DNA from: Ignavibacteria bacterium
Lineage (GTDB): Bacteria > Bacteroidota > Ignavibacteria > Kapaibacteriales > UBA961
Reading direction: 5' to 3'
Length of the DNA stretch: 64,000 nucleotides
Assembly (NCBI GenBank): GCA_947491315.1
Contig: CANLII010000001.1
Coordinates: 1 to 64,000, forward strand
The first letter of the stretch is position 1, and the number at the start of each line of letters is the position of its first letter. The notes beneath the pieces are model-generated. The model worked only from the letters and a program-made list of their open reading frames with translations. It was not told the DNA's origin and searched no databases. A program made the translations under genes and the position numbers. Positions 1 through 64,000 of this stretch are shown here, piece after piece.

Positions 1-240
1 CCACCGGAATCGCCATCGCGTTTTCTGAATCCACCGGAATCACCATCGCGTTTTTGATAACCGCCTGAGTCACCATCGCGTTTTCTGAATCCACCGGAAT
101 CACCATCGCGTTTTCTGAATCCACCGGAATCACCATCGCGTTTTCTGAATCCACCGGAATCACCATCGCGTTTTCTGAATCCACCGGAATCGCCTTCGCG
201 TTTTCTGAATCCACCGGAATCACCTTCGCGTTTTTGGAAA
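1..240. repeat. 30-bp in-frame tandem repeats (8 units, continuing off the window)
   Basis: Eight direct 30-bp units lie head to tail. Most begin ccaccggaatc on the plus strand and contain ccatcgcg or ccttcgcg. A ninth and a tenth, degenerate, follow at 241-300. The unit length is a multiple of three and stays in the methyltransferase frame, encoding GGFRKR(D/E)GDS. Units 4 to 6 are identical, which suggests recent expansion or gene-conversion-like homogenisation. There are no spacers, so this is not a CRISPR array. Confidence 0.95.
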
Positions 241-1163
241 CCGCCTGATTCGCTATCATTATTGTTAAATTCACCCGAATCTTCAGCACTATCTATTTGA
301 CTATCTGAATCTATATCATGAGTTTCAATATCATGCTTTATGGGCAATGAATCTTCATCAGATTCAAAGATCTCATCATGAGTTTCTTCTACCATTTTTA
401 TTTTTTTGGAATCACTAGTAGCAATACGCTCTTTTTTCTTCTCGAAATTTGACAATACGCTAAGAACTGTTCTTCCGGGATGACCCTCAAAGACAATCAC
501 AAATTCCCCTTTGAAAGGAGTATCGGTGAATACTTGATGAAGTTCTGAAAATGTGCCATAATGATGATGTTCAAAAGCCATTGTCAGATTACATCCGATA
601 TACGCTTTACGATCGGGCATCACTTTTGCAGCTGCTTCAAGGAGAGGTTTCAGGCGATAGGGCGTTTCAAGAAGGACAGTTGTTCTTGGTTCCAATGCAA
701 GTGCCTGCAATTCCATTAATCTATCTTCTGTTGTTCTACTCAAGAAGCCTGCGCAGGTAAACACATCAGAAGTAAAACCACTTCGCACAAGTGCTGTCAT
801 GAGCGAACTTGGACCTGGAACTACGACGATATTAATATTCGCATCCAATGCCAAATTCAAAAAGTATCTACCCGGATCCGCAAAGATGGGGGTTCCTGCA
901 TCAGAGATCAAAGCGAAAGTTTCACCATTTTGGAGTCGTTCGATCAATTGAGGAGCATATTCATCCTCATTATGTTCATTGAGTTGTTCGAGATTTGCAC
1001 TGAAGTTATGTCTTTTGGCTAGCAATGCTCCAACTTTCTCTTCTTCACAAATAACTGTATCCACTTTCTTCAGTACTTTCAAAGCACGAAGTGAGATGTC
1101 ATCCTCATTACCAATTGGTGTTGAAACGATGTATAATACTGCCTGTTCTTGATTCTTCCGCAT
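1..1163 (-). CDS. RsmI-family SAM-dependent methyltransferase with repeat tail (partial, 3' end outside window)
   Basis: Tetrapyrrole-methylase fold protein resembling 16S rRNA ribose methyltransferase RsmI. I read it directly on the minus strand; it stays open to the window edge. Visible motifs are TPIGN (residues 15-19), SDAGTP (87-92) and VPGPS (about 115). The usual RsmI AEDTR motif is replaced by CEEEK, and YESPHR by LETPYR, so this may be a paralogue rather than RsmI itself. The methylase core ends near residue 228. An acidic linker follows, then at least eight decapeptide repeats of the type GGFRKRDGDS. The ATG overlaps the stop of the upstream endonuclease gene by one base (TAATG), which suggests translational coupling at the end of the rimP-nusA-infB operon. 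The family call is firm; the exact substrate is uncertain. Confidence 0.85.
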   Translation of the reverse strand, partial: MRKNQEQAVLYIVSTPIGNEDDISLRALKVLKKVDTVICEEEKVGALLAKRHNFSANLEQLNEHNEDEYAPQLIERLQNGETFALISDAGTPIFADPGRYFLNLALDANINIVVVPGPSSLMTALVRSGFTSDVFTCAGFLSRTTEDRLMELQALALEPRTTVLLETPYRLKPLLEAAAKVMPDRKAYIGCNLTMAFEHHHYGTFSELHQVFTDTPFKGEFVIVFEGHPGRTVLSVLSNFEKKKERIATSDSKKIKMVEETHDEIFESDEDSLPIKHDIETHDIDSDSQIDSAEDSGEFNNNDSESGGFQKREGDSGGFRKREGDSGGFRKRDGDSGGFRKRDGDSGGFRKRDGDSGGFRKRDGDSGGYQKRDGDSGGFRKRDGDSG

Positions 1164-5715: not shown

Positions 5716-8652
5716 TCAGCTTAATTTCCTTTTGACTTCAATTTGCTTATAAGCTTCGATGATATCTCCAACTTGAATATCATTGAAACCATTGACACTC
5801 ATACCACATTCGTAGTTATTATCAACTTCTCTGACATCATCTTTGAAGCGTTTAAGTGCGGATAATGTTGAGTTGTAAACAGAGAAGCCGTCTCGCAGAA
5901 CACGGACACGGTCATTTCTATTAATTTTACCTGAGGTTACATAACAACCTGCAACAGTTCCGATTTTGCTAATTTTAAATACTTGGCGTATCTCTGCTGT
6001 ACCGGTGATTTCTTCTTTAATCTCAGGGGAGAGAAGTCCTTCGAGTGCCATTTGAATCTCATTGATACAGTCATAGATGATTGTATACAATCGAATGTCA
6101 ACACCTTCATTTTCAGCTGATTTACGAGCTTGTGATGTTGGTGAAACATGGAAACCAACTACAACTGCACTGGATGCTGCAGCCAACATGACATCTGATT
6201 CTGAAATTGGTCCAACGCCTTTGTGAAGAATTGTAACCTTTGCTTCATCTCTTGAAAGTTTCTGTAATGAATCAGATAATGCTTCCAATGAACCACTAAC
6301 ATCGCCTTTGATGATAAGTCGCAACTCTTTTGTTCCACCACGCAAGATGTCTTGCGAAATTTCATCGAGGGTGGTTGGTCGCATTTGCTTAAATGTTTGC
6401 TCACGCTTGAGTTGCTGTCTCTTAGTAGCAATTGCTCTTGCTTCGGTTTCTTGTTCAAACACTGCAAATAAATCACCTGCTTGAGGAGCACCATCAAAAC
6501 CAGACACTTGAACGGGAACAGATGGACCTACCTTTTCAACACGATTTCCGCGTTCATCAAACATTGCACGAACTCTTCCGGAATAAATACCAGCCACGAA
6601 TGCATCACCGATGGAAAGCGTACCCTTTTGCACCATGACCGTTGCCAAAACACCTTTGCCTTTGTCAAGATGGGCTTCAATCACAGTTCCTCTGGCAATG
6701 CGATCAGGATTCGCTTTGAGATTCAGAATATCCGCCTCTAGGAGAATCTTCTCCATAAGACCTTCAATATTGGTTCCCTTCTTTGCGGAAATATGAGCAC
6801 ACTGATACTTGCCGCCCCATTCCTCTACCAATACACCGCGATCTGCTAATTGTTGCTTTACGCGATCGGTATTCGAATCCTCTTTATCGATTTTATTTAA
6901 TGCAACAACAATGGGAACACTAGCTGCTTGAGCATGGCTTATGGCTTCAATTGTTTGAGGCATCACATTATCATCGGCTGCTACTACAAGAACAACAATA
7001 TCAGTTACTTGAGCTCCTCTGGCACGCATTGCAGTAAATGCTTCATGTCCTGGTGTATCAAGAAATGCGATAGTACGACCATCGGGCAAATCAACATGAT
7101 ATGCGCCAATATGCTGTGTAATACCGCCGGATTCACCGGCTACGACATTTTCTTTTCTGATATAATCCAAAAGTGATGTCTTGCCATGATCCACATGACC
7201 CATAATCGTAACTATCGGAGGACGTGACACAAGTGATTCTTCTGCATCTTCTATGTCAATGATCTCTTGTGCGGCTTGTTCGTCTAGGAATTCTACCTGG
7301 AATCCATAATCATCAGCAATCAATGTAATTGTGTCTTTGTTGAGTCTTTGGTTAATGCTCACCATTAACCCAAGAGACATACATTTCACTATGATTTCTG
7401 CAGCTGTTGTTCCCATCAATGCGGCAAGATCCGCAGTGGTAACAAACTCAGTTAGACGCAGAATCGTGCTTTCGCGTTCTACTTCTTCAATGCGGCGAGC
7501 TTCTTTTTCCTCGCGTTCCATTTTCTTTCTTTGCTTGAGCTTATTTCTGAAACCGGAACCAGAATCTTCCATTCCGGATAGCGTTTCGCGAATTGCTCTT
7601 GTTACATCCTCTTCGGTTATTGTCTCACGAATAGATTTCTTTTTCTTTTTCTTCTTGTCTATTCCTTTCACATCTTTTGGAGGTGCCGGACGTAGATTCT
7701 TCTTTGCACCTTTATCTTTATCCTCCTCGGCTTTGCCAGGAGCAGGAGCTAGTCCACCCACTTGACCTTTAGCACGGAGTCTTTCACCGATGGATTGTTG
7801 ATTTCCAGTTGCTGGTCTATTTGGTCTGCGATCAATATCTCTACGCTCATTATCTCTTCGCTCGCCTCCTGGACCTTGTGGCTGCTGTGGACGATCTCCA
7901 ACTTTTTTTGCAGTTCGATCGGGACGACCATATCGACCACCTTCCACTCTGCGAGAGGGAATATCAATCTTTCCAACAACAGTCAAGCCACGAAGTTGAG
8001 GCATTGCCCCAGCTTCATATTCAACTTCCATGATGCGTTTCTTTTTCTTCTTTACTAAATCTTTAGAATCATCTTCCTGAGATACTGCTTCCGTTTCTGC
8101 CGGAGTAGCATTTTCGACTTCCTTTTCAGTCTCCTTCACTATGGCAATCTCAGGAGTCGAAATCTCTATTGTTTCGGCTATAGGTTCAATCTTAGGTTGC
8201 GATTCGATTTCTTTTTCAATTTCGATATGAACTATTTCCGGCTCAGAGGGCTCAGGCATGATTTCCGGTTCAGATTGTACTTCTACAATCGGAGCCTCGA
8301 TGATTTCCTCTTTTGGTTCAACCCTTACAGGTTCTTCAATTTCTGCAGGCACTTCATGAACGGGTATTTCTTCAATGACCGCTTCTTCAATAAGTGGTGA
8401 TTCCACAGAATCACCTTTATCAGGATTGCGAGCATGATGATACTTTTCTAATTTCTCTCTCTGCTTTTCAGCAGCTTTCGCCTCACGGGCAAATTTGTCC
8501 ATGACAACTTCGACCATATCTTCGGTTAAGACAGATGTTGGTTTGTTTTCAATGGTGAATCCTTTTCCTTGAAGGAATTCAACAATGGCGTCCTTCCCAA
8601 TATTAATCTGGGAGGCAAGCTTGAAAAGACGTGTTCCGTTAGATGCAGGCAT
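5716..8652 (-). CDS. infB: Translation initiation factor IF-2
   Basis: GTPase that brings initiator tRNA to the 30S subunit. The 978 residues begin with an IF2_N-like segment. A long acidic Glu/Pro/Val-rich linker follows (about residues 75-200), then basic Gly/Arg-rich stretches and a second IF2_N domain. GTPase motifs begin near residue 480: GHVDHGKT (G1), DTPGHE (G3), NKID (G4) and SAK (G5). The C-terminal beta-barrel and initiator-tRNA domains follow. The low-complexity linker generates many spurious antisense reading frames. A hairpin with a T run lies in the 72-base gap between nusA and this gene. Confidence 0.97.
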   Translation of the reverse strand: MPASNGTRLFKLASQINIGKDAIVEFLQGKGFTIENKPTSVLTEDMVEVVMDKFAREAKAAEKQREKLEKYHHARNPDKGDSVESPLIEEAVIEEIPVHEVPAEIEEPVRVEPKEEIIEAPIVEVQSEPEIMPEPSEPEIVHIEIEKEIESQPKIEPIAETIEISTPEIAIVKETEKEVENATPAETEAVSQEDDSKDLVKKKKKRIMEVEYEAGAMPQLRGLTVVGKIDIPSRRVEGGRYGRPDRTAKKVGDRPQQPQGPGGERRDNERRDIDRRPNRPATGNQQSIGERLRAKGQVGGLAPAPGKAEEDKDKGAKKNLRPAPPKDVKGIDKKKKKKKSIRETITEEDVTRAIRETLSGMEDSGSGFRNKLKQRKKMEREEKEARRIEEVERESTILRLTEFVTTADLAALMGTTAAEIIVKCMSLGLMVSINQRLNKDTITLIADDYGFQVEFLDEQAAQEIIDIEDAEESLVSRPPIVTIMGHVDHGKTSLLDYIRKENVVAGESGGITQHIGAYHVDLPDGRTIAFLDTPGHEAFTAMRARGAQVTDIVVLVVAADDNVMPQTIEAISHAQAASVPIVVALNKIDKEDSNTDRVKQQLADRGVLVEEWGGKYQCAHISAKKGTNIEGLMEKILLEADILNLKANPDRIARGTVIEAHLDKGKGVLATVMVQKGTLSIGDAFVAGIYSGRVRAMFDERGNRVEKVGPSVPVQVSGFDGAPQAGDLFAVFEQETEARAIATKRQQLKREQTFKQMRPTTLDEISQDILRGGTKELRLIIKGDVSGSLEALSDSLQKLSRDEAKVTILHKGVGPISESDVMLAAASSAVVVGFHVSPTSQARKSAENEGVDIRLYTIIYDCINEIQMALEGLLSPEIKEEITGTAEIRQVFKISKIGTVAGCYVTSGKINRNDRVRVLRDGFSVYNSTLSALKRFKDDVREVDNNYECGMSVNGFNDIQVGDIIEAYKQIEVKRKLS

Positions 8653-41888: not shown

Positions 41889-42197
41889 TTATTCGTATCG
41901 ATCTGACCTACGATCTCCGCCGCGAAAATCGCGACGTGGTCCGCGTGATTGCTCCTCGCGAGGGCGAGCTTCATTGACTACCAATGTGCGTCCACTGAAC
42001 TCTTGGCCATTGGTTGTTTCGATGGCACCTCTTGCTTCATCATCACTTTCCATTTCAACAAAACCAAAACCGCGTGAGCGACCTGAGATTTTGTCTGTGA
42101 TAACGAAGGCACCTGTGACATTGCCGTAGCCTTCGAATAGGGTGCGAAGTTCTTCGGAACCCATGTTGTACGGCAAATTGCCTACATAAATATTCAT
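41889..42197 (-). CDS. RRM RNA-binding protein with short RGG-like tail
   Basis: A 102-residue protein: an RRM (residues 1-80) with RNP2 IYVGNLPYN and RNP1 RGFGFVEM, followed by a basic RGPRRDFRGGDRRSDRYE tail. Such proteins are common cold-inducible RNA chaperones in Bacteroidota and cyanobacteria. A long leader of 65 or more bases with a TATATTTG box precedes it. Monocistronic. Confidence 0.93.
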   Translation of the reverse strand: MNIYVGNLPYNMGSEELRTLFEGYGNVTGAFVITDKISGRSRGFGFVEMESDDEARGAIETTNGQEFSGRTLVVNEARPREEQSRGPRRDFRGGDRRSDRYE

Positions 42198-42262
42198 AAC
42201 AAACCTTCTATAGATGTGTAGTGATTAGCGAGACCGACAAACAAACAATTATACGAGTGATC

Positions 42263-63612: not shown

Positions 63613-64000
63613 TTATGTTGTTTTCTTCTTCACGACTTTTTTGGCTGTTGTTTTCTTAGGAGCGGTTTTTTTAGCAGTAGTTTTCTTTGCAGCAGTAGTT
63701 TTCTTAGCTGCAGAGGTCTTCTTTGTTGTTGTTTCTTTTTTCTTCGATGAGCTTTTGGATTTCGGGGCAACTTTCTGCAATGTTTTACCCTGCTCTTCTG
63801 CAAATGCAAAGCATTGTTCAAGAGTCAATGAGGCAGGATCGGTTCCTTTGGGGATTTTTACATTGCTTTTTCCAAAGCTTATATAGGGTCCGAATCTTCC
63901 ATTCACGATTGTTATTTCAGATTGTTCAGGAAATGCTTTAATCAATCGTGAAGCTTGCAATTCTCTCTTTTGTATGATGAGTTCTATCGCCTTTTCAAGT
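63613..64000 (-). CDS. topA: DNA topoisomerase I, C-terminal part (partial)
   Basis: The frame is open to the window edge (LEKAIELIIQKRELQASR precedes an internal TTG at 63960). It carries the topoisomerase C-terminal repeat signature VNGRFGPYISFG and PASLTLEQC. The last 50 residues are Lys/Thr/Ala-rich (KKTTAKKTAPKK type), similar to a histone H1 tail. The catalytic domain lies beyond 64000. Convergent with the DprE1-like gene, the two stops abutting. Confidence 0.85.
   Translation of the reverse strand, partial: LEKAIELIIQKRELQASRLIKAFPEQSEITIVNGRFGPYISFGKSNVKIPKGTDPASLTLEQCFAFAEEQGKTLQKVAPKSKSSSKKKETTTKKTSAAKKTTAAKKTTAKKTAPKKTTAKKVVKKKTT

Follow-up and report, generated by a model that had tools for sequence, protein, structure and literature searches.

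The left end of the window, by which we mean the whole stretch of 64,000 nucleotides analysed here, carries a gene for an RsmI-like methyltransferase that runs into an array of near-identical repeats and is then cut off. The locus raises three linked questions: whether the repetitive tail is real, whether the protein that carries it is RsmI, and what the tail might do for the enzyme. The contig that holds the window (C1, 264,828 bp) begins at window position 1, and the frame is therefore cut by the contig end and not by a stop codon. The features are:

3..1163, minus strand: RsmI-like paralogue, 387-aa open frame, with ATG at 1163 and the frame cut by the contig start
483..1148, minus strand: tetrapyrrole-methylase/RsmI core, 222 aa (Pfam PF00590, TIGR00096, alignment, model, residue table)
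246..482, minus strand: 79-residue linker, mostly acidic, net charge per residue -0.16
1..245, minus strand: eight 30-bp units GG[FY][RQ]KR[DE]GDS plus 5 bases (tandem repeat analysis, register reading)
G000:C6:1-372, plus strand: continuation of the RsmI-like paralogue to its stop, on contig C6 of the same genome
1163..2866, minus strand: secreted protein upstream of the paralogue, which we take to be endonuclease-I-like, used as a synteny anchor (open frame, gene order)

The stop of the endonuclease-I-like gene shares one base with the paralogue ATG (TAATG), and its homologue adjoins the paralogue in loci of several families; judged from this gene order, the pair is an old neighbourhood.

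Tandem Repeats Finder places the array at 1-234, with a period of 30, 7.8 copies, 92% match and a score of 396. Read in register, it consists of eight units at 6-245, of which units 3-5 are identical, with 5 leftover bases at 1-5. The repeat tail and acidic linker described in the first-pass annotation were both found as reported. Its count of eight units is correct for the window but falls short for the gene. A DNA search of the genome gave one other match to the array, at the start of contig C6, where eight further units are followed by 43 residues ending in GMRPPRKRY and then a stop; the C-terminal end encoded there is basic. The ends of C1 and C6 have GGTGG in common, in phase. In another genome of the genus (G006) the order endonuclease, paralogue, small protein, anti-sigma-like protein and sigma factor is unbroken, while in G001 the order is endonuclease, paralogue, small protein, sigma factor and GreA (names assigned by reading the sequences); these are the genes that flank C1 and C6. 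Together, the units on C6, the in-phase GGTGG and the gene order indicate that C1 and C6 most likely adjoin and that the gene has at least 16 units, a minimum value with the assembly breaking inside the array. A stop just past the window edge, which the annotation had named as a possible refutation, is ruled out: extending the contig past position 1, as it had proposed, carries the frame on into C6.

That the contigs were wrongly ended or joined within a repeat is extremely improbable. Contigs do end within the array in four of the seven genomes of the genus (G000, G002, G003 and G005), as an assembly artefact would predict; however, G001, G004 and G006 carry the paralogue with its array unbroken, and the gene order across the proposed junction matches that in G006 and G001, leaving uncertainty in the copy number. 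It is on the unbroken relatives and the gene order that the artefact is rejected.

The array also stands out in the part of its genome that was sampled. In these 472 kb (20.5%), its C1 and C6 halves score 396 and 417, against 216 for the next best tandem array. Apart from the two halves of the paralogue, a low-complexity filter on about 395 open frames let through only three sequences: the InfB linker, an RRM-like protein and a protein of 880 aa. With so few frames passing in this sample, a genome-wide habit of repeat tails was rejected. A RhlE-like helicase of the DEAD-box type and pseudouridine synthases, the further RNA enzymes of the genome that were read, have no such repeats either, and there is therefore no sign of a multi-protein system in it. 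Codon differences between units (16 synonymous and 10 nonsynonymous in frame) make a weak test of the reading frame, since one antisense frame does better, with 21 and 4.

Some other low-complexity sequences were observed. The protein encoded at 5716-8652 (minus strand), presumably InfB, has a long Arg/Gly/Pro-rich linker near residues 230-305. A small RNA-binding protein at 41892-42224 (minus strand), assumed from its motif to be of RRM type, ends in an R/G/D-rich tail. Short tandem arrays of 15/18 bp lie at 63637-63725, possibly in a lysine/alanine-rich protein end. Elsewhere in the order, two family f8 proteins (L047 and L048), pseudouridine-synthase-like by eye, have long N-terminal NYGNRDGYNRQGGG-type repeats, a second case in which an enzyme that modifies RNA is extended by low-complexity repeats.

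The core scores 176 bits against TIGR00096 (177 in the genome search), above the curated cut-off of 167.9, which places it in the broad RsmI family, as first annotated. Beside it, the genome encodes an ordinary RsmI that bears CEDTR and RELTK and has no tail. The tailed protein has CEEEK where that copy has CEDTR, and in the alignment it has E-E-E-K against the canonical E-D-T-R and C-N-L-T-M against R-E-L-T-K. Every canonical RsmI examined has the EDTR and RE(L/I)(T/S)K residues, and the window protein lacks both sets. The first-pass annotation had taken CEEEK as a hint that this may be a specialised paralogue, and the protein is indeed distinct from the ordinary RsmI of its own genome.

Phylogenetic analysis leads to the same view. 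In a tree of 138 cores, the 17 canonical rows lie on one side of a branch with support 100/100, and the 65 Kapabacteria paralogue rows form one group, also with support 100/100. Around that group lie 56 CEE relatives without tails, which come from the class, from Cloacimonadota and Chloroflexota and from other lineages. The window protein sits in the Kapabacteria CEE clade, outside the canonical clade. The Kapabacteria label was given to cores scoring above 300 bits, and L049 (256.8 bits) was added by hand; the tail played no part in this, and the tree recovered the group. Before counting, duplicates were removed by the first 200 core residues, and L009 and L052 (core gap), L035 and L091 (core cut) and L107 (partial match) were dropped. 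The rows L099-L135 are RsmI relatives of the CEE type that have no tail and come from records of Chloroflexota, Cloacimonadota and Nitrospinota. By the evidence of the cores, the tailed gene is a separate, old RsmI paralogue belonging to this CEE clade.

Among 61 genomes (its own and 60 relatives), the paralogue core occurs in 50, a canonical-like copy in 60 and both in 49, as tallied by hand with a split at 176 bits and with G044 (146 bits) counted as canonical without being read. An ordinary tail-less RsmI in close relatives, which had been expected to count against the tail, therefore does not do so, because relatives have both genes. Of the 11 genomes without the paralogue core, seven (G014, G023, G030, G047, G052, G056 and G060) account for every genome of genera g5 and g14, both in family f2. 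These seven lack the CEE paralogue though near-complete, and so provide a natural contrast in the search for the site that it methylates. In G005 the core is absent and a tail fragment has the same neighbours, and G013, G044 and G054 are fragmented or incomplete.

The residues of the core were compared with E. coli positions taken from PMC5053481, using an assumed offset of 17 that reproduces D100, A124, F144, Y169 and R174. In that text, D100, A124 and F144 are AdoMet-pocket residues and R174 is modelled as contacting an RNA phosphate. The equivalents of D100 and R174 are each present in 64/65 Kapabacteria and 56/56 other CEE rows, and that of F144 in 56/65 (the window protein included) and 42/56. 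A124 is replaced by Ser, also a small residue, in 61/65 and 56/56 rows, and D45 by Glu in the same proportions; Y169 mostly becomes Leu or Met. R196, E197 and K200 are found in all 17 canonical rows; at these positions the commonest Kapabacteria residues are C or M, N, and mostly M or L, and HHYG follows. The predicted pocket (D kept, A to Ser, F kept) is thus that expected of an AdoMet-dependent class III methyltransferase. The structural model of the core has a pLDDT of 90.9, and its best matches are 3kwp (TM 0.94) and RsmI on the 30S subunit, 9pzg (TM 0.93); among the matches listed, TM is 0.88-0.94 to RsmI-type chains and at most about 0.69 to tetrapyrrole enzymes. The retained pocket residues, the lost EDTR and RELTK residues and the fold match indicate that AdoMet use is likely kept in the paralogue and that its target site has likely changed from that of RsmI.

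The tail, first annotated as a feature of one gene, is real but belongs to a whole order. A search for tails among homologues, counted over non-redundant complete proteins, found tails of at least 50 residues in 48/59 Kapabacteria paralogues, 0/56 other CEE proteins and 0/17 canonical proteins. Over the 59 the median length is 168 and the maximum 474. The other 11 have tails of only 6-48 residues: six rows of family f6 (11-27), L055 (6), L088 and L090 (34), L078 (44) and L082 (48). Two tails are acidic (L095 and, strongly, L094). By these rows, the tail is one that can be lost or changed. L043, a possible tail relative, is an unrelated VTTAKLADGS-repeat protein and was rejected.

The 48 tails are alike in composition rather than in sequence. 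Their median charged fraction is 0.46, net charge per residue +0.085 and aliphatic content 0.07 (cores, 0.37), with median Gly of 10% and acidic residues 17%. Defining a strong polyampholyte by a charged fraction above 0.35 and a net charge per residue within 0.35, 39/48 qualify, as do the units in the window and those on C6, whose charged fraction is 0.47-0.50 and whose net charge per residue lies between +0.07 and +0.10. The net charge is positive in 44 and not in four; the last 15 residues are basic in 37/48; a basic doublet followed by an acid occurs at least four times in 30/48; and 10/48 contain a 30-residue stretch of net -8 or lower. The suggestion of RGG/FG-type repeats is at best a loose fit: RGG is absent from the window part of the tail and from 26/48 tails, and occurs three or more times in only 12/48. 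These motif counts rule out a classic RGG domain, and the repeated RGG/RG with little acid of RGG/GAR-type domains is not what these mixed-charge, modestly Gly-containing tails present.

Repetition is common and its form changes quickly. Compared with 200 shuffles, 31/48 tails are more self-similar than all of them and 17/48 are not; among the self-similar tails the best period takes 17 different values, the shortest being 3 and the longest 44. The unit is GGFRKREGDS in the window genome, GGYKKRE in G006, SGDRKDSRGGSGF in G001, RRSGGFRDDRG in G007 and KKFGDKKFG in G020, so that unit sequences vary by genus, and even inside a genus, while composition is largely kept. G001 and G004, whose cores are 90.9% identical in DNA, have 10 and 3 units, and G007 and G010 (99.4%) have arrays of 151 and 105 residues, with short-read collapse possible in both comparisons. 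The first-pass annotation expected repeat number to vary between strains; it varies between near-relative genomes, though variation between strains is not proven by these figures. As judged from its sequence, the tail is in frame, consists mostly of repeats, is poor in aliphatic residues and mixes both charges; it is specific to the Kapabacteria order, and its composition predicts that it is probably disordered.

What might such a protein do? We propose, with about even confidence and by analogy, that it is an AdoMet-dependent RNA methyltransferase with a target different from C1402. Its tail, probably disordered, would hold the enzyme near RNA or form RNA-dependent condensates. The paralogue would methylate RNA, most likely rRNA, at a 2'-O or another position away from C1402, leaving C1402 to the canonical copy. 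Basic doublets and aromatic residues of the tail would bind RNA weakly and multivalently, and its acidic residues would allow tail-tail contacts; the tail might in this way keep the enzyme near nascent or assembling ribosomes, possibly in RNA-dependent condensates. Repeat slippage would let the length drift while composition is kept. From the short tails (11/59) and the seven f2 genomes without the gene, it follows that neither tail nor gene is indispensable.

A possible though unlikely explanation is that the tail has no selected function, the C-terminus simply accepting insertions, with replication slippage making and replacing repeats. Unit replacement by slippage needs no selection, and variation of units between genera and of their number between near relatives, together with several almost tail-less lineages, is what this explanation would lead us to see. 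Against it, composition is largely kept as units change (39/48 strong polyampholytes, median aliphatic content 7%), the final 15-mer stays basic in most tails, tails are confined to one clade (0/73 relatives outside it), and the sampled 472 kb holds no comparable array. It is also unlikely that the tail serves to attach the enzyme to a ribosomal protein or some other protein partner instead of RNA, or that it works as a spacer or keeps the protein soluble. Self-association, or binding to proteins of opposite charge, is known of strong polyampholytes, and the long acidic blocks of 10/48 tails would suit such contacts, but the predominance of net positive tails and the lack of a conserved docking motif across genera (tails read by eye) argue otherwise.

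The enzyme itself may be questioned. Its fold is common to porphyrin methylases and it has lost the signature residues of canonical RsmI, so the CEE clade might act on something other than RNA. Proteins and small molecules come into question, given that elsewhere in the tetrapyrrole-methylase superfamily such substrates are used. We consider this decidedly unlikely: the protein is by far closest to RsmI, both in its TIGR00096 score and in the TM values for the matches listed, and the equivalent of R174, the modelled RNA-phosphate contact (PMC5053481), is kept.

If an RNA methyltransferase with a changed target is the correct reading, family models can give the name of the C1402 enzyme to a widespread CEE clade (in the class, Cloacimonadota and Chloroflexota) that lacks its signature and, in the Kapabacteria order, lives beside it; the mark that the clade places would then be a new one. 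The tails form a natural series, in which close species carry one enzyme with different unit sequence, period and number. With it one could ask how disordered tails retain their function under sequence turnover, and whether tethering of rRNA-modifying enzymes, as in nucleoli, occurs in bacteria. No prior description of a repeat-tailed RsmI was recognised by title and abstract in the open-access literature.

Among known systems, RsmI itself (TIGR00096, 16S rRNA cytidine-1402 2'-O-methyltransferase; E. coli 5hw4, 9pzg) resembles the paralogue in predicted fold (TM 0.93), core length, D100, mostly F144, and the R174 position; unlike it, the paralogue has CEE.K for EDTR, CNLTM for RELTK, Ser for A124, Leu for Y169 and an added tail, and coexists with a canonical copy. 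Bacteroides 1wyz, RsmI-like and of unknown function, is another such protein in Bacteroidota, but at 20% identity and TM 0.79 it probably belongs to a different subfamily.

For the tail, the nearest likenesses lie further afield. Fibrillarin has an enzyme fold unrelated to RsmI and is RNA-guided, and its GAR domain has almost no acidic residues. The KKE/D domains of snoRNP proteins are Lys-rich and not known to carry Gly/aromatic repeats, and the disordered region of Bacteroides thetaiotaomicron Rho lies at a different position within its protein from the paralogue tail, with no tandem repeats known there. Further differences are that the fibrillarin tail is at the opposite end, that the KKE/D proteins are eukaryotic, and that Rho is a different protein. 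The GAR domain nevertheless resembles the paralogue tail in being a Gly/basic/aromatic low-complexity tail added later, in its case to an rRNA 2'-O-methyltransferase; PMC11599257 describes it as present in eukaryotes and not archaea, self-associating and holding pre-rRNA. The KKE/D tails of Nop56, Nop58 and Cbf5 are alike in charge, being net positive strong polyampholytes with acid-spaced basic doublets on rRNA-modification proteins. According to PMC11528048 they draw snoRNPs towards rRNA as it is made, help the modification along and coacervate with RNA. Rho offers a disordered region on a universal RNA enzyme in the same phylum, and it does not condense with RNA unless the KE-rich part of that region is present (PMC13269538). 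It would be a long shot to suppose that Kapabacteria convergently built a full counterpart of the fibrillarin and snoRNP tails, with a self-renewing polyampholyte tail on an rRNA methyltransferase, a condensate at nascent rRNA and a mark new to bacteria. By resemblance to KKE/D, Rho and GAR tails, and not by membership of any of these groups, the paralogue tail may be a multivalent RNA tether.
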